Source of the DNA: Nitrospirae bacterium CG2_30_53_67
GTDB taxonomy: Bacteria; CG2-30-53-67
Reading direction: 5' to 3'
NCBI GenBank assembly: GCA_001873285.1
Contig: MNYV01000011.1
Location: 1 to 6,082 of the forward strand
Length of the DNA stretch: 6,082 nucleotides
Shown: in pieces, positions 1 through 6,082 of the stretch
Numbering within the stretch: position 1 is the stretch's first letter
How the letters are laid out: every line of letters begins with the position of its first letter
Made by a program: the position numbers and the translations under genes
The notes under the pieces: model-generated
What the model was told of the DNA's origin: nothing
The model's database searches: none
Seen by the model: the letters and a program-made list of their open reading frames with translations, nothing else

Positions 1-894
1 AAAGACCGTAGAGACCACGCTCGGATCCTTGATGGGGAAACAAATTTTTTCCAGGTCTTCGGGGGTTTCCCAGAGTCCCACGGCCTTCCATGCCTGGACC
101 TGGTCTCCCTTGATGATAAAGAGGATGACCCGTTCCAGCCGGGCGTTCGCATAGGCGGTAAGGGTGTCTGCGATATCTTCCCTGTTCTTTGCCTGTGCCA
201 GGTTTAGGGACGCGCCCTCGAATGTCGTCAGGTCAATGGCCGGTTCGGGTTCGGGCGCTCCCGCGGGCATGGGTACGGGCGCGGGTACCGGCTCCGGCGG
301 CCTGGCTTCGATGCTGACGGGCGGCGCGCTTGGGGCAGGGAGGGGCGCTTTTGCTTTCTCCGTCATCTGCTGAGCCGCGCGCTCTTCCTGGATCTTCTTT
401 TTCTCCTCCCATTCCTTCCGCCTTTTCTTCTCCTCTTCGGGGATGGAGATAAACCGCATCTCCCTTCGGATCCGGTAGTTCTTCTCCAGCAGGAAACTCA
501 TCTTCGACTCGGTGGTCACAAAGGGTTTGATGACCTTGCCGGTGATGAAGCTGATCTCGTTGACGGCCTCCATGTTCGTCGGGTCCATCATGGCGAGATG
601 GATCCTTCCCTTGGGGGATTCAAAGGGGCAGACCCGGTACTTCCGTGCAAGGTCTTCGGGGATCTCCTGAATGACGGCGGGATCAATCTCTCTGAGCTTG
701 ACCGGATCTGCAATGGAGACATGCAGGGTGTGGCTCAGGGCTTCCAGGAGTTGTTCCTCGGTAATGTAAAAAAGTTCCAGGAGATTGGTCCCGATCCTTC
801 CGCCGAAAATGACCTGTCTCTGCAGGGCCTCGCTGCACTGCTCCCCGCTCACGTAACCTTTGTCGATCAGATATTGTGTCAGTTTTGGTCTCAT
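1..894 (-). CDS. MshEN (GspE/PilB N-terminal) domain protein, C-terminus cut off by window edge
   Basis: The 298 visible codons run open to base 1, so the C-terminus is missing. Residues 4-53 hold the tandem MshEN pattern: a first motif beginning KLTQYL with G13, L24 and Q27, five spacer residues (VIFGG), then a second motif beginning RIGTNL. Residues 60-140 continue as a GspE/PilB N-terminal fold (AMMDPTNMEAVNEISFITG). A charged, probably helical stretch (153-182) leads into a proline-rich linker (183-218), then a small domain from about residue 220. No Walker A motif is visible, so this is probably not a complete secretion or pilus ATPase. In the family, MshEN domains bind c-di-GMP. A c-di-GMP-responsive regulatory role is inferred, supported by the GGDEF gene 64 bp upstream on the same strand. 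ATG 894 is chosen because the domain starts there; no clear Shine-Dalgarno precedes it. An in-frame GTG at 909 is possible. Confidence 0.75.
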   Translation of the reverse strand, partial: MRPKLTQYLIDKGYVSGEQCSEALQRQVIFGGRIGTNLLELFYITEEQLLEALSHTLHVSIADPVKLREIDPAVIQEIPEDLARKYRVCPFESPKGRIHLAMMDPTNMEAVNEISFITGKVIKPFVTTESKMSFLLEKNYRIRREMRFISIPEEEKKRRKEWEEKKKIQEERAAQQMTEKAKAPLPAPSAPPVSIEARPPEPVPAPVPMPAGAPEPEPAIDLTTFEGASLNLAQAKNREDIADTLTAYANARLERVILFIIKGDQVQAWKAVGLWETPEDLEKICFPIKDPSVVSTVF

Positions 895-958
895 AGGTTG
901 AACAGTCACTATCCGGGTTTCAGTCCCTTTCCCGTATCGGGGAGGGAGGCAAGCGGAC
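895..958 (-). other. 64-bp spacer between the GGDEF and MshEN genes
   Basis: There is no promoter-like sequence and no terminator with a T-run here, so the two minus-strand genes are probably cotranscribed. A short interrupted inverted repeat (CCCG/CGGG at 931-934 and 938-941, with outer CCC/GGG at 925-927 and 944-946) could form a weak hairpin between the stop and the next start. Confidence 0.4.
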
Positions 959-2368
959 TTAAAGGGCGAAAGGCCCGGTCTTCTGCCGTTGCAGATCGAT
1001 CTCCGCGGCATGGATCAGATCTATAGCCGATTGCACCTCTGTCTCTTCCATGGATGAAACGCCCACCTGCACGGAAACACCCAATTCGTGCAGGGTAGGG
1101 TTCTTGAACGCCAGTTTCTGGAATCGTTTGGCCTGTACGGTCGCGCCGATCAGGCTGGTCTCCGGGAGGAGGATGGCAAAATCGTCACCCTGGCACCTGG
1201 CAGCCAGGTCGGATTTGCGGATGGACTCATTGATCAGACGTCCGATGATCCGCAGGGCCTGGTCCCCTTTTTCGATCCCGTGGATCTCGTTCACCTTCCT
1301 GAACTGGTTGATGTCGATCAGGATGAGCGACAGATGGCTCTTATAGCGTTTGGCCCGGTAGATCTCCTTTTCACCGGCTTCAAGAAAACTGTAATAGCCG
1401 CAGAGATTGGTGAGAGAGTCGAAGGATGCCACCGCGGTTTTATCGTTGTGTTCAACCGATTCAAAGACCTGGGCATTGAGCAGAGCGGACTTGGCGGCGT
1501 TGGATATTCCTTTCAGGAACCGTATCTCCCGTTCATTGAATGTCTCCTTGGACCGCGCCGTGCTCAGGAGGAGCGTTCCGATCAGGTCGTCTCCATGCGT
1601 GATCGGGACCACCATGAGGGAGAAACATCCGATCTCGTGCAGGATCTCCCGCACCATGGACATTCGTTCATCCTTGTCTATATCGGGAATTACGACCACG
1701 CTCCTCCGTTGAAGCGCTTCCATGATCTCCGGATACTTGTTCAGGTCGATCTTCAGATCCTGAATCTCCGGCCCGTCGCTGGTGGCCTCTACGATCCCTT
1801 CAGACATGTTCTTACCGATCCGGATCACGGAACAGCGTTTGACCTGGATATGTTCGGAGATCTTCTGGACCAGGCAGTAGAGAATATCCCGGGTTTTTTT
1901 CTTGGCGTGAAGTGTGGTGATCAGCTGATTGGTGACGAACAGGTCTTCCTTTTCGTTTTTGATCTGGTCCATCCTTTTCTTGATCTGGAGGTGGCGCCGT
2001 ATGTGCGCCAGGAGGAGATCCGCATCAAAGGGTTTGGTGACATAATCATTCGCCCCCAGTTCAAAACCGGTCTGGATATCCTTTCCCTTATCCTGAGAGG
2101 TCACCATAATGACCGGGATATCCTGGGTGTGATGGTTTTCCCGGATGGTTTTCAGGACCTTGAGCCCGTCCATGTCGGGCATGATAATATCAAGGAGGAT
2201 CAGGTCCGGCGAAAAAACCGCGGCCTTCTGGAGGGCCTCAATTCCGTTTCCTGCATCTTCGACGATGTAATGGTTTTGGACCAAGAGGTTCTTCAGGGTG
2301 GAGCGGATGCTCACGTTGTCATCGGCGATGAGAATTTTATCATGTTTTATCAATGTGTTACGCTCCAT
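959..2368 (-). CDS. Response regulator with receiver, GAF and degenerate GGDEF domains
   Basis: This is a cytoplasmic signalling protein of 469 residues from ATG 2368. An upstream in-frame ATG at 2416 would add 16 residues, but it lies inside the predicted -10 box. Residue numbers here are from 2368. The receiver domain (about 10-128) has the acidic pair D16-D17, phospho-acceptor D60 in LLDIIMP, T90 and K112 in TKPF, so it should be phosphorylatable by a histidine kinase not seen here. A linker helix leads to a GAF-like domain (about 145-300). The GGDEF domain (about 315-469) has its signature changed to QGDDF (393-397). The metal-binding Asp of LIDIN (D352) and an I-site RKSD (384-387), five residues before the signature, are kept. 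The opening motif is also degenerate (LTNLCGYYSF). Diguanylate cyclase activity is therefore uncertain, and it may be a c-di-GMP binder instead. It is the first gene of a likely two-gene unit with the MshEN protein. Confidence 0.9.
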   Translation of the reverse strand: MERNTLIKHDKILIADDNVSIRSTLKNLLVQNHYIVEDAGNGIEALQKAAVFSPDLILLDIIMPDMDGLKVLKTIRENHHTQDIPVIMVTSQDKGKDIQTGFELGANDYVTKPFDADLLLAHIRRHLQIKKRMDQIKNEKEDLFVTNQLITTLHAKKKTRDILYCLVQKISEHIQVKRCSVIRIGKNMSEGIVEATSDGPEIQDLKIDLNKYPEIMEALQRRSVVVIPDIDKDERMSMVREILHEIGCFSLMVVPITHGDDLIGTLLLSTARSKETFNEREIRFLKGISNAAKSALLNAQVFESVEHNDKTAVASFDSLTNLCGYYSFLEAGEKEIYRAKRYKSHLSLILIDINQFRKVNEIHGIEKGDQALRIIGRLINESIRKSDLAARCQGDDFAILLPETSLIGATVQAKRFQKLAFKNPTLHELGVSVQVGVSSMEETEVQSAIDLIHAAEIDLQRQKTGPFAL

Positions 2369-2414
2369 TCTCGGAAATTCTAAACAGGCCAAGACTTCTG
2401 ATTCGTATACTACC

Positions 2415-2444
2415 ATAATAAAAGAAAAACATCTGTTTTGACAA
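2415..2444 (-). promoter_or_regulatory. Sigma70-type promoter for the response regulator unit
   Basis: Read on the minus strand, the -35 TTGTCA (2444-2439) matches TTGACA at 5 of 6 positions. It is followed by 18 bp and then the -10 TATTAT (2420-2415), 5 of 6 to TATAAT. The spacer is AT-rich with a T-run. Transcription would start near 2408, leaving a leader of about 40 nt before ATG 2368. The -10 includes the A and T of the ATG at 2416, so that ATG would not be on the transcript. Confidence 0.6.
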
Positions 2445-2495
2445 GGATTTTTATTGGTTTTATTGACATGCCGATTTACCAGTGTTATCCCTTCC

Positions 2496-2524
2496 TTGAC
2501 ACTGCGGCGGGCATCTGATAGAGT
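2496..2524 (+). promoter_or_regulatory. Candidate promoter for the radical SAM operon
   Basis: A perfect -35 TTGACA (2496-2501) is followed by exactly 17 bp and a -10 TAGAGT (2519-2524; 4 of 6 to TATAAT). Transcription would start near 2531, giving a leader of about 200 nt before the radical SAM start codon. A second TTGACA at 2463-2468 lacks a good -10 partner. Confidence 0.45.
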
Positions 2525-2660
2525 TCAAAAAATTCAAGAACCTATCCGGAGATCCAACTTGATGAACCGAGACCACCGTACGTTTGCATTTCTTTTTCTC
2601 CTTTTCCTTCCTACGGTCGATCTCCTCTTTCCTTGACCCTGACCAGCCTGAGTTCTGTTT

Positions 2661-2687
2661 GCCGTGAAGGCGCCAAGACACAAAGAG
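2661..2687. repeat. Fragment resembling a widespread intergenic repeat
   Basis: The segment around GCGCCAAGACACAAAGAGG (minus strand: CTTTGTGTCTTGGCGCC) has the look of a short degenerate sequence seen in intergenic DNA of many bacteria, where it produces spurious predicted proteins containing strings like LCVLAP or FVSWRL. Both strings occur here in minus-strand frames (LCVLAPSRQ and FVSWRLHGKQ). Only one copy is in the window. The identification is by memory of the pattern, without an alignment. Confidence 0.4.
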
Positions 2688-2733
2688 GATTGTGAGCGGG
2701 TATTCCCCCATTATGTGAGACAGTGAGTATCTT

Positions 2734-3894
2734 ATGCCGTTGCAGAACACAACATTCAAACCCGACACGATCCGTTATAAGGATGTCCATGCGGAATTGA
2801 AAAGCGTCCTGACGGAGATCCGGAGCCATGATCAAAAGGTTTTATTTGAGCCGGGCCGCGCCCTCTCTTCGGATATCCGGATCGGATATCTGCAGGGGCG
2901 GACGGTGCAGAGGCTGGTCATCACGCTCCGGTCCCCGGGCTGTGCGTGGGTCCGCAAGGGGGGCGGGTGCACCATGTGCGGGCATTATCCGGGGACCACG
3001 CAAGGAACGGCGCTTTCGCCTCAGGATTTTTCGGCTCAGTTCAGGAGGGAGGCCGCGCGCTACCGAGGACGGGACCTGCCGATACTCTGCCTGTACAACT
3101 CCGGGTCGGTGCTCAATGAAGAAGAGATCCCGGAAGAGGCCCTTGCAGGGATATTCGAAGAGATCGAGCGAATGAAGGAGGTCCGCAAGGTTGTTCTGGA
3201 GAGCAGGCCTGAGTATTGTTCCGAGGAGAAGATCGCCTGGATCAGAAAACGCATCGGCGGGAAAGATTTGGAGATCGCCATGGGGCTCGAGTCCTGCAAT
3301 GACCGGGTCCTCTCCCTGACCCTGAACAAGGGCTTCGTCTCGGAGGATTTCCGCCGGATGGCTGAGAGGATCCGGCAGTATGTGGCGATCCGGATTTATG
3401 TGCTGCTCAAGGGTCCCTTTCTGACCGAGTCGGAGGCCATCGAGGATGCGGTCTCCTCCATCGAATTTGCCCGTACGCTTTCACCGAGCGAGATTCATCT
3501 TGAGCCGGCCACGCTGCAGAAACACACCTTGCTCCATTCTTTGCACCAGGCCGGGCTGTATGATCTCCCCTGGCTCTGGAGCATCTATGAGGTGCTCAGC
3601 CGTGTTGGCGCCGAAAACAGGGTTTATGTCAGCCCGTTCAATCATATGCCGAGGCCGGTCCATATTCCTGAAAACTGCCCTGACTGTTCGGAGCAAGTGC
3701 GGGACCTGCTCACCCGGCGCTACAATGAAACCTTTGACCTGCAGCCTGTCCGGCAGTTTCCCTGCGCCTGCAGAGAGAGGTGGGAACACGCCCTCAAAGA
3801 AGAGGATCCGAGACCGCTGGCACAGCGGATCCTTGAAGGGCTGCGGGTGATCCGGCAAGCAGGCGGCCTCCATCGTATGGAGGCCGGATCATGA
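2734..3894 (+). CDS. RaSEA-like (TIGR01210-type) radical SAM protein
   Basis: This 386-residue protein should bind a [4Fe-4S] cluster and S-adenosylmethionine to start radical chemistry. The cluster cysteines are C70, C79 and C82, in a Cx8CxxC arrangement (GCAWVRKGGGCTMCGHYPG) rather than the classical Cx3CxxC. This spacing and the blocks YNSGSVLNEEEIPEE (121-135), LESRPEYCSEE (155-165) and GLESCNDRVLSLTLNKGF (184-201) match the archaeal archaeosine-synthase radical SAM family as I remember it. A second cysteine set near the C-terminus (C315, C318, C344, C346) may bind another metal or cluster. In archaea, RaSEA completes archaeosine in tRNA. This looks like a bacterium with a different gene context, so the substrate here is unknown. 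An in-frame TGA at 2716-2718 rules out a longer N-terminus. GTGAG six bases before the ATG is a weak ribosome-binding site. It is the first gene of a tight operon and overlaps the next start by ATGA. Confidence 0.85.
   Translation: MPLQNTTFKPDTIRYKDVHAELKSVLTEIRSHDQKVLFEPGRALSSDIRIGYLQGRTVQRLVITLRSPGCAWVRKGGGCTMCGHYPGTTQGTALSPQDFSAQFRREAARYRGRDLPILCLYNSGSVLNEEEIPEEALAGIFEEIERMKEVRKVVLESRPEYCSEEKIAWIRKRIGGKDLEIAMGLESCNDRVLSLTLNKGFVSEDFRRMAERIRQYVAIRIYVLLKGPFLTESEAIEDAVSSIEFARTLSPSEIHLEPATLQKHTLLHSLHQAGLYDLPWLWSIYEVLSRVGAENRVYVSPFNHMPRPVHIPENCPDCSEQVRDLLTRRYNETFDLQPVRQFPCACRERWEHALKEEDPRPLAQRILEGLRVIRQAGGLHRMEAGS
3864..3886 (+). promoter_or_regulatory. Hairpin hiding the PLP-enzyme ribosome-binding site
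   Basis: CGGCCTCCAT (3864-3873) and ATGGAGGCCG (3877-3886) form a perfect 10-bp stem around a 3-base loop (CGT). The 3' arm contains GGAGG (3879-3883), the Shine-Dalgarno seven bases before ATG 3891. The hairpin lies within the last codons of the radical SAM gene, so ribosomes finishing that gene would melt it. This fits translational coupling, along with the ATGA overlap. The structure is read directly; the coupling is inferred. Confidence 0.65.
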
Positions 3895-5006
3895 GACCGA
3901 GGCCTTTCTTCATGGAGCGATGGCTCATGGCCAACCGGTTCCACGTCCGTTACAATCTGGCCGAGAGCGGTGTTTCGGATCTGACCTTAAATGAGCTTAT
4001 CTCCCTCTGCGATATCGATCTCAAGGAACTGATGTCCATCAAGCTGGAAGACGAAGACACGCGCGGGAGCGAGGCGCTCCGGGAGGAGATCAGCAGTCTC
4101 TATCCGGGAAGGAGAGCTGAAGAGGTCATGGTCACCACAGGAACCAGCGAGGCCCTCTTTATCCTGTTTCATCTCCTGCTCAATCCCGGTGACACCTGCG
4201 TCGTCACCTTCCCGGCCTTTCAGGGTCTCTATGAAACCGCCCGCTCACTTTCCTGCCGGATCAAATTCTGGGAACTCCGGATTGAAGAAGGCTTTGTGCC
4301 GGATTTAAACCGCCTTGCCGATCTCATGGACGACCGGACCCGCCTGGTGGTGGTGAACACCCCCCATAATCCGACCGGCAAGATCATCCCCATGGAGACG
4401 CTGAGCGAGGTTCACCGTCTCTGTCGAGAACGCGGGGCCTACCTGCTCATGGATGAACATTATCGTTTTCTCCCGCTCAACGGCTCCGCGGGGATCCTCC
4501 CCTCGGCCGTGACCCTGGGCGGGGACGTGATCGGGACCGGTTCCATTGTCAAATGCTTCGGACTCATGGGTCTTCGCATGGGGTGGATGGTCGCGCCTTT
4601 GGATCTGCTGTCGGCGGCCAGGGATTTCAAGGACTACCTCACCCACACGTTATCCCCGATCAGCGATTTCTTGAGTCTTAAGGCCCTGAGAAACCGGGAG
4701 GCCATCCTGTCCGTGCACCGGAGCCATGTGCTCAAGAACGCCGCCGCGCTCAATCAATGGATGAGAGGGCATGAGGCCTTCTTCGGCTGGACCCCGCCCG
4801 AGGGCGGCGTGGTCAGCTACCCCCGGATCCTGTTGGATATGGATGCTGACCGTTTCTGTCAGGATCTGATCGACCGGCAGGGGGTCTTTCTGCTCCCTGC
4901 CGGCTCCTTCGAGATGGAGGGGCATGTCCGCATCGGGTTCGGTATCCGGCATGACGCGTTCCTGGAGGCGCTGGACCGGCTGGACCGTTACCTGAAAGAT
5001 ATGTGA
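3891..5006 (+). CDS. Fold-type I PLP-dependent enzyme (aminotransferase class I/II, VioD-like)
   Basis: At 371 residues it is close to the usual length for this fold. All the main PLP-site residues are present: TTGTSEAL (82-89, phosphate binding), N160 in NTPHNPTGK, D188 and Y191 in MDEHY, the Schiff-base lysine K221 in SIVKCFGLMGLRMGW with S218 and R229 (phosphate), and R347 in VRIGFG (substrate carboxylate). The cofactor-stacking aromatic of the PxY motif is F110 (FPAFQGLY). The N-terminal part (MERWL..., then LAESGVSDLTLNEL) resembles the aminotransferase branch that includes capreomycidine synthase, so either transamination or an elimination/replacement/cyclisation reaction on an amino acid is possible. 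The start at 3891 is supported by GGAGG seven bases upstream and the ATGA overlap with the radical SAM stop. M8 is an alternative. The neighbouring radical SAM and ATP-grasp genes suggest it makes or modifies an amino-acid building block. Confidence 0.88.
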   Translation: MRPRPFFMERWLMANRFHVRYNLAESGVSDLTLNELISLCDIDLKELMSIKLEDEDTRGSEALREEISSLYPGRRAEEVMVTTGTSEALFILFHLLLNPGDTCVVTFPAFQGLYETARSLSCRIKFWELRIEEGFVPDLNRLADLMDDRTRLVVVNTPHNPTGKIIPMETLSEVHRLCRERGAYLLMDEHYRFLPLNGSAGILPSAVTLGGDVIGTGSIVKCFGLMGLRMGWMVAPLDLLSAARDFKDYLTHTLSPISDFLSLKALRNREAILSVHRSHVLKNAAALNQWMRGHEAFFGWTPPEGGVVSYPRILLDMDADRFCQDLIDRQGVFLLPAGSFEMEGHVRIGFGIRHDAFLEALDRLDRYLKDM

Positions 5007-5011
5007 GGAGG
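5006..5011 (+). promoter_or_regulatory. Ribosome-binding site deciding the ATP-grasp start
   Basis: A perfect AGGAGG overlaps the last base of the PLP-gene stop. Two in-frame ATGs follow in tandem (5014 and 5017). Spacing is 2 bases to the first and 5 to the second, which favours 5017. Confidence 0.65.
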
Positions 5012-5016
5012 GTATG

Positions 5017-6082
5017 ATGAGAATTGGATTCACCTACAACCTGAAAAAGGACAAGGTCCGGTCAGATCCGAACGGTAGGGACAATCCTGCTGAAGAAGAC
5101 TGGGATGACTCGGATGCCGAGTATGAAGACCTGGAGACCATAGACGCCCTTGCAGCGGCCCTTGAGACATGCACAGAGGAGCCTGTGGTCCGCCTCCCGT
5201 GCGATCATGCTCTTCCGGCAAGGCTGGAATCCGAGCATCTTGATTTTGTTTTCAACATTGCGGAAGGGTGGGGCGGACGGAACCGGGAGGCCTTTGCCCC
5301 TTCCCTGTTCGAGATCTTCGGGATCCCTTATACTGGATCTGACGGGCTCACCCTGAGCCTGACCCTGAACAAGGTTCTGACCAAGAAGATCCTGATGGCC
5401 GAGGGGATCCCCACACCTGAATTCTTTGTGGTCAGGGATCTTGGGGAACTCAGGGATATCCCCCTTCCATTCCCCCTGTTTGTCAAACCCTGTCATGAAG
5501 GGACCAGCAAGGGGATTCGGAACTTTTCCCTGGTGAGAAACCCGGACGAACTGGAAAGGGCCGTGTCGTGGGTCCTGATCAACTATCATCAGCCGGCGCT
5601 GGTGGAACGCTTCATCTCCGGGCCCGAGGTGGCTGTCGGCATCCTGGGGAACGGCCCGGATATCAAAATCCTCCCGCACGCGGAGATCCGTTTTACCGAG
5701 CAGAATCCCTTCTACTCGTTTGAATGCAAATCCCTGGTGGACGAGGAGATCCTCTGTCCGGCCCCCCTGAGTCCGTCCCTCACCATGCGGATAGAAGAGA
5801 TCGCCCTCGCTGCCTATGAGAGCTTCGGGTGCCGGGATCTGGCCCGGCTTGACCTTCGAATCAACGAGACAGGCGAGCCTTATGTCCTCGAGATCAATCC
5901 GCTTCCAGGCCTTTCACCCCGCTACAGCCTTTTCCCGATCCAGGCTGCGGCCGCAAGCATGGACTACAAAGCGATGGTCCGTGCTCTCGTGGGGCAGGCC
6001 ATGAAACGGTACAGCATGGATATGACGGGGAGGAGCGCCCGGAGGAAGCCCAAGGGCCGGGCATTGATACCCAATGAGGATG
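5017..6082 (+). CDS. D-Ala-D-Ala-ligase-like ATP-grasp enzyme, 3' end beyond window
   Basis: There are 355 visible codons without a stop, already about full length for a Ddl-type ligase; the basic tail (RSARRKPKGR, 339-348) suggests the end is near. The family activates a carboxylate with ATP to form an amide or peptide bond. By comparison with E. coli DdlB, the ATP-site lysines are K119 and K157 (FVKPCHEGTSKGI), followed by the loop with T163, then GPEVAVG (202-208). R277 and the metal ligands D279, E292 and N294 lie in ARLDLR and LEINPLPGLSP. All are intact, so it should be active. Two features differ from real Ddl: the YEAKY-type motif reads FECKSL, with S239 at the position of DdlB Tyr216, and the N-terminus lacks the REVSL-type substrate motif, carrying an acidic stretch (26-40) instead. 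It is therefore probably not the cell-wall enzyme but a ligase for another amino acid or peptide. It starts 10 bp after the PLP gene, in the same operon. Confidence 0.85.
   Translation, partial: MRIGFTYNLKKDKVRSDPNGRDNPAEEDWDDSDAEYEDLETIDALAAALETCTEEPVVRLPCDHALPARLESEHLDFVFNIAEGWGGRNREAFAPSLFEIFGIPYTGSDGLTLSLTLNKVLTKKILMAEGIPTPEFFVVRDLGELRDIPLPFPLFVKPCHEGTSKGIRNFSLVRNPDELERAVSWVLINYHQPALVERFISGPEVAVGILGNGPDIKILPHAEIRFTEQNPFYSFECKSLVDEEILCPAPLSPSLTMRIEEIALAAYESFGCRDLARLDLRINETGEPYVLEINPLPGLSPRYSLFPIQAAAASMDYKAMVRALVGQAMKRYSMDMTGRSARRKPKGRALIPNED

Follow-up and report, generated by a model that had tools for sequence, protein, structure and literature searches.

A candidate pathway for a peptide-like metabolite encoded by a co-inherited set of radical SAM, cyclase-type PLP and ATP-grasp/aminomutase enzymes

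Genes for a radical SAM protein, a PLP enzyme and an ATP-grasp ligase lie together in a 6,082-nucleotide stretch of DNA (the window) from Nitrospirae bacterium CG2_30_53_67, raising the question of whether they serve one pathway and what it might make. The head-to-tail packing reported in a preliminary description of this DNA was confirmed: the first two ORFs overlap through ATGA, and the third follows after 7 bp or 10 bp, according to whether ATG 5014 or ATG 5017 is chosen as its start (Table 1). The family calls (TIGR01210, aminotransferase fold I and D-Ala-D-Ala-ligase-type ATP-grasp) held as well.

The operon had been expected to run on beyond the edge of the window; only the ligase gene does so. 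The window is the entire contig C11, the ligase ORF has no stop inside it, and the window's final 105 bases are the initial 105 of contig C111. The ORF joined across the two contigs encodes 713 aa, in which the ATP-grasp domain comes first and a lysine-2,3-aminomutase-like (KamA/LAM) radical SAM domain second. The same fusion, of 718 aa, is unbroken on one contig of a genome from the same genus (L004), and an AF2 model of the fusion orthologue from genome G001 has two folded domains and a disordered linker. Four enzyme activities are therefore carried on three genes. Since the next ORF in C111 lies ~320 bp downstream of the fusion stop and is unrelated, the unit ends with the fusion gene. Upstream, the sigma-70-like promoter match (2496-2524, + strand) is weak, with 0.6 matches expected in shuffles over both strands. 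The same region has no Rfam match to a riboswitch or known RNA family, and riboswitch control of the operon was rejected for this reason.

Table 1. Features of the gene unit and its upstream region
Feature	Position	Strand	Remarks
Upstream intergenic region	2417..2733		One sigma-70-like promoter match
RaSEA-related radical SAM gene	2734..3894	+	386 aa; TIGR01210
PLP enzyme gene, GntC/VioD/OrfR cyclic-arginine-synthase group	3891..5006	+	371 aa
ATP-grasp (Ddl-like ligase), N-terminal part of 713-aa bifunctional protein	5014->6082	+	PF07478
LAM-like radical SAM/PLP C-terminal part	On contig C111 (L003), to base 1178		Joined ORF

The radical SAM orthologue is rare. Eight genomes were found to carry it, of which two belong to the same genus as the window and the remaining six come from samples of three further groups. 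These eight were compared with 72 control genomes, and full-scoring orthologues of both the PLP enzyme and the ligase were present in 8/8 set genomes and 0/72 controls. The eight set genomes headed the radical SAM profile (510-684 bits; next 279), and the identical eight were on top with the PLP profile (505-676 bits; next 273) and the ligase profile (417-576 bits; next 366). The three genes form one operon in five of the eight genomes and are scattered in the other three. Their adjacency persists in a distant phylum at ~43% identity, so the gene packing is not due to chance. The set, carried by uncultivated bacteria and seen in this analysis only in draft or metagenome-derived genomes, is inherited together in at least four bacterial lineages. 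The preliminary description was thus right that the three enzymes belong together, but it missed the fourth activity. It had named two outcomes that would count against a joint pathway, namely genes rarely found together or belonging to separate known pathways; we checked for them, and neither held for the genes of the radical SAM enzyme, the PLP enzyme and the ligase.

The same eight genomes also lead the LAM profile (504-636 bits), with the next score only just lower (502). Six control genomes exceed 449 bits, and for this reason co-occurrence alone was not taken as proof for this domain. The LAM subfamily extends beyond the gene set, and its tree agrees less well with the other three (Spearman 0.20-0.35, versus 0.64-0.75 among the others); its membership accordingly rests on fusion and co-occurrence combined. 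Two genomes carry the ligase-LAM fusion; two Myxococcota that lack the radical SAM and PLP genes have ligase and LAM genes as an unfused pair, again with the ligase first. A LAM variant with Asp293 replaced by Gln and a PLP loop shorter by two residues was found in 8/8 set genomes and 3/72 controls.

The radical SAM protein carries its cluster motif CX8CX2C at C70, C79 and C82, and a C-terminal CX2C...CXC group at C315, C318, C344 and C346. It shares family and CX8CX2C motif with archaeosine RaSEA (TIGR01210). Were it a true bacterial RaSEA, acting on archaeosine or a related 7-deazaguanine, its neighbours would be unrelated to it. The window protein does exceed the equivalog cut-off of 212.15 bits (221.7), as do L005 (213.8) and L074 (223.5). 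However, the operonic orthologues fall under it (L089, 164.6; L007, 170.7; L090, 196.0), as does L006 (191.6), so the RaSEA resemblance noted earlier is weaker than it appears. The enzyme studied here is moreover bacterial, the links seen so far are to a PLP enzyme and an ATP-grasp enzyme and not to ArcS or ArcTGT, and perfect co-occurrence with the first two makes unrelated neighbours very unlikely. On profile scores, RaSEA may serve as a weak label for the enzyme, and we regard a true RaSEA as highly improbable. A sequence search returned no solved structure for this protein. An AF2 model (pLDDT 87.7) adopts a radical SAM barrel whose nearest fold neighbours are Elp3 (Z 16.4) and queuine lyase (Z 16.2). 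As these are general radical SAM relatives only, no substrate was read from the fold.

The PLP enzyme had been likened to amino-acid tailoring enzymes in general; judged by sequence, it is closest to the cyclic-arginine synthases GntC and OrfR. Its PDB matches are GntC (8fft, 4e-71) and OrfR (4m2j, 7e-54), and its NCBIfam scores lie under the cut-offs for GntC (336.1 bits, cut-off 415) and VioD (303.0 bits, cut-off 390.9). The best solved relative is the L-enduracididine cyclase GntC (8fft/8ffu), of which nine functional residues are kept (E9, S25, F108, D186, Y189, K219, R227, H250 and R346; roles from PMC10367076). It differs from GntC by Asn52->Asp, Thr84->Ser (Gly in one) and Ser26->Gly, and none of the other guanitoxin-pathway genes was seen near the PLP gene. 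All residues by which we defined the GntC/OrfR type (E9, S25, N/D52, F108, K219, H250, R346) are present, and in the orthologue alignment E9, S26, D54, F110, K221, H252 and R347 are invariant in 8/8 sequences. E9 is not diagnostic, because paralogues carry it too; with GntC T84 also lost, we did not take a guanidine pocket to prove that the substrate is arginine.

Fold-type I Aminotran_1_2 membership, and PRK07324 relatives that are named aminotransferases, would also suit an ordinary aminotransferase, with the set yielding a simple dipeptide from transaminated units. Position 54 argues otherwise: it is Asp in 8/8 orthologues and in OrfR, Asn in GntC, and Tyr in 3op7 and three paralogues. Given this and the GntC-type His252, we consider an ordinary aminotransferase quite unlikely.

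The ligase domain (PF07478, 2e-36) has the ATP-grasp fold and catalytic residues of Ddl, but the D-Ala2-side Tyr is not conserved. K119, K157, E197, R277, D279, E292 and N294 are invariant among orthologues, and the residues sought for metal and ATP binding are all present. Scores against two Ddl families were under cut-off (178.7 bits, cut-off 243; 155.8, cut-off 245.65). A housekeeping Ddl was rejected, as the true ddl of genome G000 is a separate gene inside the murC-murB-ftsQ-ftsA-ftsZ cell-division cluster. Further, weaker Ddl-type matches occur in every genome examined.

The LAM-like domain matches TIGR03820 (356.7 bits, cut-off 525.4) and PDB 2a5h (3.6e-98) and stays under all four equivalog cut-offs. 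In common with KamA/AblA (2a5h) and their glutamate and arginine relatives, it keeps the cluster motif CX3CX2C (CPSLCRHC), the carboxylate-side Arg that follows, Asp330 and the PLP lysine (DTPYGK); it differs in Asp293->Gln, in the loop (DTPxGK versus DAPGGGGK) and in being fused to ATP-grasp. In lysine 2,3-aminomutase, Asp293 and Asp330 bind the lysine side chain. These features bear on a lysine-based pathway of otherwise similar kind: the LAM domain would supply beta-lysine, or another lysine derivative, for the PLP and radical SAM enzymes to modify, and ligation would give an osmolyte, a polyamine-like compound or a siderophore-like peptide. In its favour, lysine is central to the LAM family, and RaSEA has a lysine adduct as its substrate (PMC11298593); in addition, a lysine-fermentation cluster contains a PLP paralogue adjoining kamA. 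Yet the lysine-binding Asp293 is replaced by Gln, and the operonic PLP enzymes have the cyclase-type Asp and His at positions 54 and 252, where Tyr and Met are found in the paralogue from the lysine-fermentation cluster. We judge a lysine-based route rather unlikely.

Another explanation is macromolecule modification. ArcS and RaSEA act on tRNA, and EpmA and EpmB on EF-P; the ATP-grasp, LAM and PLP enzymes might likewise build a modified amino acid and attach it to tRNA or protein, the radical SAM enzyme completing it. The RaSEA family membership, the fold nearest to the tRNA-modifying Elp3, a LAM and ligase pair reminiscent of EpmB/EpmA, and the housekeeping genes (gyrA, apt) surrounding the set genes are consistent with this. 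But nearness to Elp3 concerns fold and not substrate, the LAM domain scores far under the EpmB cut-off (228.9 versus 369.3 bits), Ddl-type ATP-grasp enzymes work on small molecules, and no known tRNA or EF-P modification involves a PLP enzyme of the arginine-cyclase-like kind. We judge such a function decidedly improbable.

The reading we tentatively favour is an NRPS-free unit that makes a small peptide-like metabolite, in which a tailored, probably arginine-derived amino acid is ligated, probably with a beta-amino acid. We infer the substrates, step order and product as follows. The LAM-like domain would convert a free alpha-amino acid into a beta-amino acid by radical SAM/PLP chemistry, and the GntC/OrfR-like PLP enzyme would carry out elimination or cyclisation of an arginine-type amino acid with an activated side chain. 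The RaSEA-related enzyme may act by radical chemistry on a side chain that carries a nitrogen substituent; it would either take over from the oxygenase responsible for arginine pre-oxidation, or serve to cleave or trim the product. The Ddl-like domain would then couple both amino-acid units, and the fusion of the Ddl-like and LAM domains in the window's genus points to the LAM product as one of its substrates.

In the viomycin and streptothricin routes, arginine is pre-oxidised by an oxygenase. Like the present set, these building-block pathways bring together a PLP enzyme of the cyclic-arginine type (there OrfR or VioD cyclase), an enzyme of the lysine-2,3-aminomutase type (there beta-lysine aminomutase) and the formation of amide bonds. 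Here, however, neither an arginine oxygenase nor an NRPS was seen. The set has instead an ATP-grasp ligase, joined in one protein with the aminomutase, and a RaSEA-related radical SAM enzyme. A bolder proposal, which we find rather doubtful, is that cyclic-guanidine or comparable amino acids arise by an anaerobic-type route: the RaSEA-related enzyme would take the place of arginine oxygenase, and a bifunctional ATP-grasp/2,3-aminomutase with a new specificity would make and ligate the beta-amino acid. If true, this would define a small-metabolite class so far unknown, kept across several deep bacterial lineages. As the preliminary description had supposed, no published account of this enzyme set was found, in a literature search that reached few subscription journals.

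Three genes with four activities (two radical SAM, one cyclase-type PLP, one ATP-grasp) constitute a discrete, testable pathway. If the favoured reading is correct, RaSEA-related enzymes would act outside tRNA, and the set would hold a new aminomutase specificity together with a physical aminomutase-peptide ligase fusion. The genes are scattered in some genomes yet co-inherited, and no transporter, resistance, hydroxylase or regulator genes are linked to the set; the scattering and the missing transporter and resistance genes point to a role within the cell rather than to an antibiotic. Scattering in three genomes without any such linked genes is unusual for a secondary metabolite and speaks against the favoured reading. 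No phage-borne relatives were found, and the only plasmid-borne ones were two distant sequences from Streptomyces. In keeping with the favoured reading, genes for arginine decarboxylase, agmatinase and homospermidine precede the LAM gene in one of the set genomes.

Our window is the entire contig C11, from a draft genome of 2.36 Mb, and its last 105 bases are identical to the first 105 of contig C111, matching nowhere else in the assembly. Joining the two contigs gives a third protein of 713 amino acids, with a stop at position 7155 (window numbering), whose first half is a Ddl-type ATP-grasp ligase and whose second half is a lysine-2,3-aminomutase-like (KamA/LAM) radical SAM/PLP domain (TIGR03820, 357 bits; structure 2a5h, 3.6e-98). 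The join is supported by the sister genome of the same genus, which carries an equivalent 718-aa ligase–LAM fusion on a single contig (L004); in the AF2 model of that fusion, a disordered linker (334-348) separates two folded domains. The three tightly packed genes of the preliminary description were confirmed, head to tail on the plus strand with an ATGA overlap between the first two. Beyond this fusion gene, the operon does not continue as had been proposed: the next ORF, ~320 bp downstream, is unrelated, so the unit consists of three genes with four activities and ends there.

Coordinates of the operon and of related or neighbouring features
Feature	Location	Coordinates	Strand
Radical SAM ORF	window	2734-3894	+
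PLP-enzyme ORF	window	3891-5006	+
Ligase ORF, continuing on C111	window	5014 to edge	+
Response-regulator/GAF/GGDEF and MshEN genes	window	1-2416	-
Repeat ORFs	L003 (C111)	7591-8493	
Unfused ligase and Gln-variant LAM, Myxococcota	L165 (G408)	6473-8490	
Unfused ligase and Gln-variant LAM, Myxococcota	L166 (G418)	5984-8073	
Lysine-fermentation cluster with PLP paralogue	L163 (G057:C15)	1526-9535	
LAM beside arginine/polyamine genes	L170 (G347:C184)	3179-7110	
RaSEA-like row, Streptomyces pFRL5	L178	14974-26118	
RaSEA-like row, Streptomyces pFRL3	L179	14851-25997	
Two radical SAM proteins and Cys-containing peptide	L066 (G000:C96)	15828-19850	
Paralogous second operon	L066 (G000:C96)	100-3638	
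Paralogous second operon	L065 (G001:C68)	4342-8451	

Profiles of all four proteins were searched against genomes. Radical SAM orthologues (510-684 bits; next best 279) were found in 2/297 genomes of the phylum of G041, 3/64 Latescibacterota (the phylum of G043) and 1/377 of the phylum of G042, while among 386 domain-wide relatives only the window's two-genome genus and G890 had one. The G890 match shares contig and coordinates with that of G347, already counted, leaving eight distinct positives. These were compared with 72 controls, mostly from the same groups and mostly the first-listed genomes of each, with no random draw. The radical SAM, PLP and ligase genes do occur together, all three being present in every positive and in 0/72 controls: PLP orthologues scored 505-676 bits (controls ≤273) and ligases 417-576 (controls ≤366). 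With eight labels placed at random, the chance of one such agreement is ~3e-11, a guide only, since the eight genomes represent about four lineages and are not independent. The LAM domain is likewise present in all eight (504-636 bits; top control 502); its clade with the DTPxGK loop extends beyond them (support 0.996), and the Gln variant occurs in 8/8 positives and 3/72 controls.

The first three genes adjoin in G000, G001, G043, G347 and G348 and lie on separate contigs in G041, G042 and G066; several of these genomes are fragmented drafts, so the 'scattered' genes may conceal some linkage. Pairwise identities are fairly congruent among these three proteins (Spearman 0.64-0.75) and less so between LAM and the others (0.20-0.35). 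The gene set, its ligase–LAM fusion and its co-inheritance are observations from which we infer substrates, step order and product. On the favoured, still tentative reading, the LAM domain would supply a beta-amino acid, the PLP and radical SAM enzymes would tailor a second amino-acid unit, and the ATP-grasp domain would link the two. Streptothricin and viomycin have a similar parts list, here without oxygenase or NRPS. A literature search of partial coverage found no published account of the set.

The best models for the PLP enzyme are the cyclic-arginine synthases GntC (336 bits) and VioD (303), each under its cut-off, and the best structures are 8fft (GntC), 3op7 and 4m2j (OrfR). Of the GntC residues with published roles (PMC10367076), E9, S25, F108, D186, Y189, K219, R227, H250 and R346 are retained in alignments of all eight enzymes (E9, S26, F110, D188, Y191, K221, R229, H252 and R347 in the window). 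GntC N52, contributed by the second subunit near the gamma-hydroxyl (PMC10367076), corresponds to Asp54 here; OrfR likewise has Asp, but Tyr stands at this position in 3op7 and in three paralogues (one of them from a lysine-fermentation cluster). Relative to GntC, T84 is also replaced by Ser or Gly and S26 by Gly. The retained pattern and Asp54 make a cyclase or elimination reaction more likely than simple transamination, and a pathway of plain aminotransferase and dipeptide formation appears unlikely; the pattern does not prove arginine as substrate. The lysine-fermentation cluster encodes 3,5-diaminohexanoate dehydrogenase, lysine 5,6-aminomutase and LAM.

Retention of the cluster motif, the Arg following it, Asp330 and the PLP lysine makes it likely that the LAM domain binds a free alpha-amino acid as external aldimine. 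In 2a5h, Asp293 binds the lysine side chain; Gln takes its place here, and the PLP loop has lost two residues. The domain scores below the cut-offs of the models for lysine, glutamate and arginine aminomutases and for EpmB. We consider a lysine-based version of the pathway somewhat unlikely. In one genome, G347, the LAM gene lies directly 3′ of arginine decarboxylase, agmatinase and homospermidine-biosynthesis genes, a hint of an arginine or polyamine context.

RaSEA converts a preQ0 lysine adduct to archaeosine (PMC11298593). The noted resemblance to it is weak: the window copy exceeds the equivalog cut-off (212.15) by 10 bits, but the operonic Latescibacterota orthologues stay below it (164.6-196.0 bits). 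A true RaSEA with unrelated neighbours is very improbable. The AF2 prediction (pLDDT 87.7) gives a radical SAM barrel whose closest folds are those of Elp3 and queuine lyase (Z 16.4 and 16.2; rmsd 3.2-3.6 over 224-257 residues), with many further radical SAM folds scoring only slightly below. A pathway for tRNA or protein modification seems quite unlikely. RaSEA and this enzyme might share radical attack at the carbon beside an amidine or guanidine nitrogen. RaSEA relatives also occur in natural-product-like clusters: distant proteins (28-30% identity) on plasmids pFRL5 and pFRL3 stand in a row with P450, SHMT-like, carbamoyltransferase and sugar genes. Elsewhere in the window's genome, a row of genes encodes a small protein, a pair of radical SAM proteins and a Cys-containing peptide of 87 aa; judged by eye, it resembles a RiPP cluster.

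The ligase orthologues share all catalytic residues of the ATP-grasp fold without variation; the tyrosine opposite the second D-Ala in Ddl is not conserved among them. A role as housekeeping ddl was ruled out, the true ddl lying in the genome's cell-division cluster (neighbours identified by eye from sequences).

Divergent genes upstream encode a response-regulator/GAF/GGDEF protein and an MshEN-domain (c-di-GMP-binding) protein, also in L004; no sign linking them to the operon was seen. Beyond the operon, two adjoining ORFs of ~145 aa each, built of the repeated hydrophobic unit MIIKxLVIVIAIAQV, are possibly low-complexity repeat rather than genes.

In two Myxococcota that lack both the radical SAM and the PLP gene, a separate ligase gene precedes a Gln-variant LAM gene by ~75-144 bp, matching the order of the domains in the fusion. 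A paralogous second operon in both genomes of the genus combines a canonical-motif LAM with a pair of Ddl-like ligases; in L065, a weak match to a RimI-like acetyltransferase lies downstream. As LAM also lies next to one or two such ligases in G007, G051, G052, G055, G059, G064 and G405, the aminomutase–ligase pairing looks widespread.
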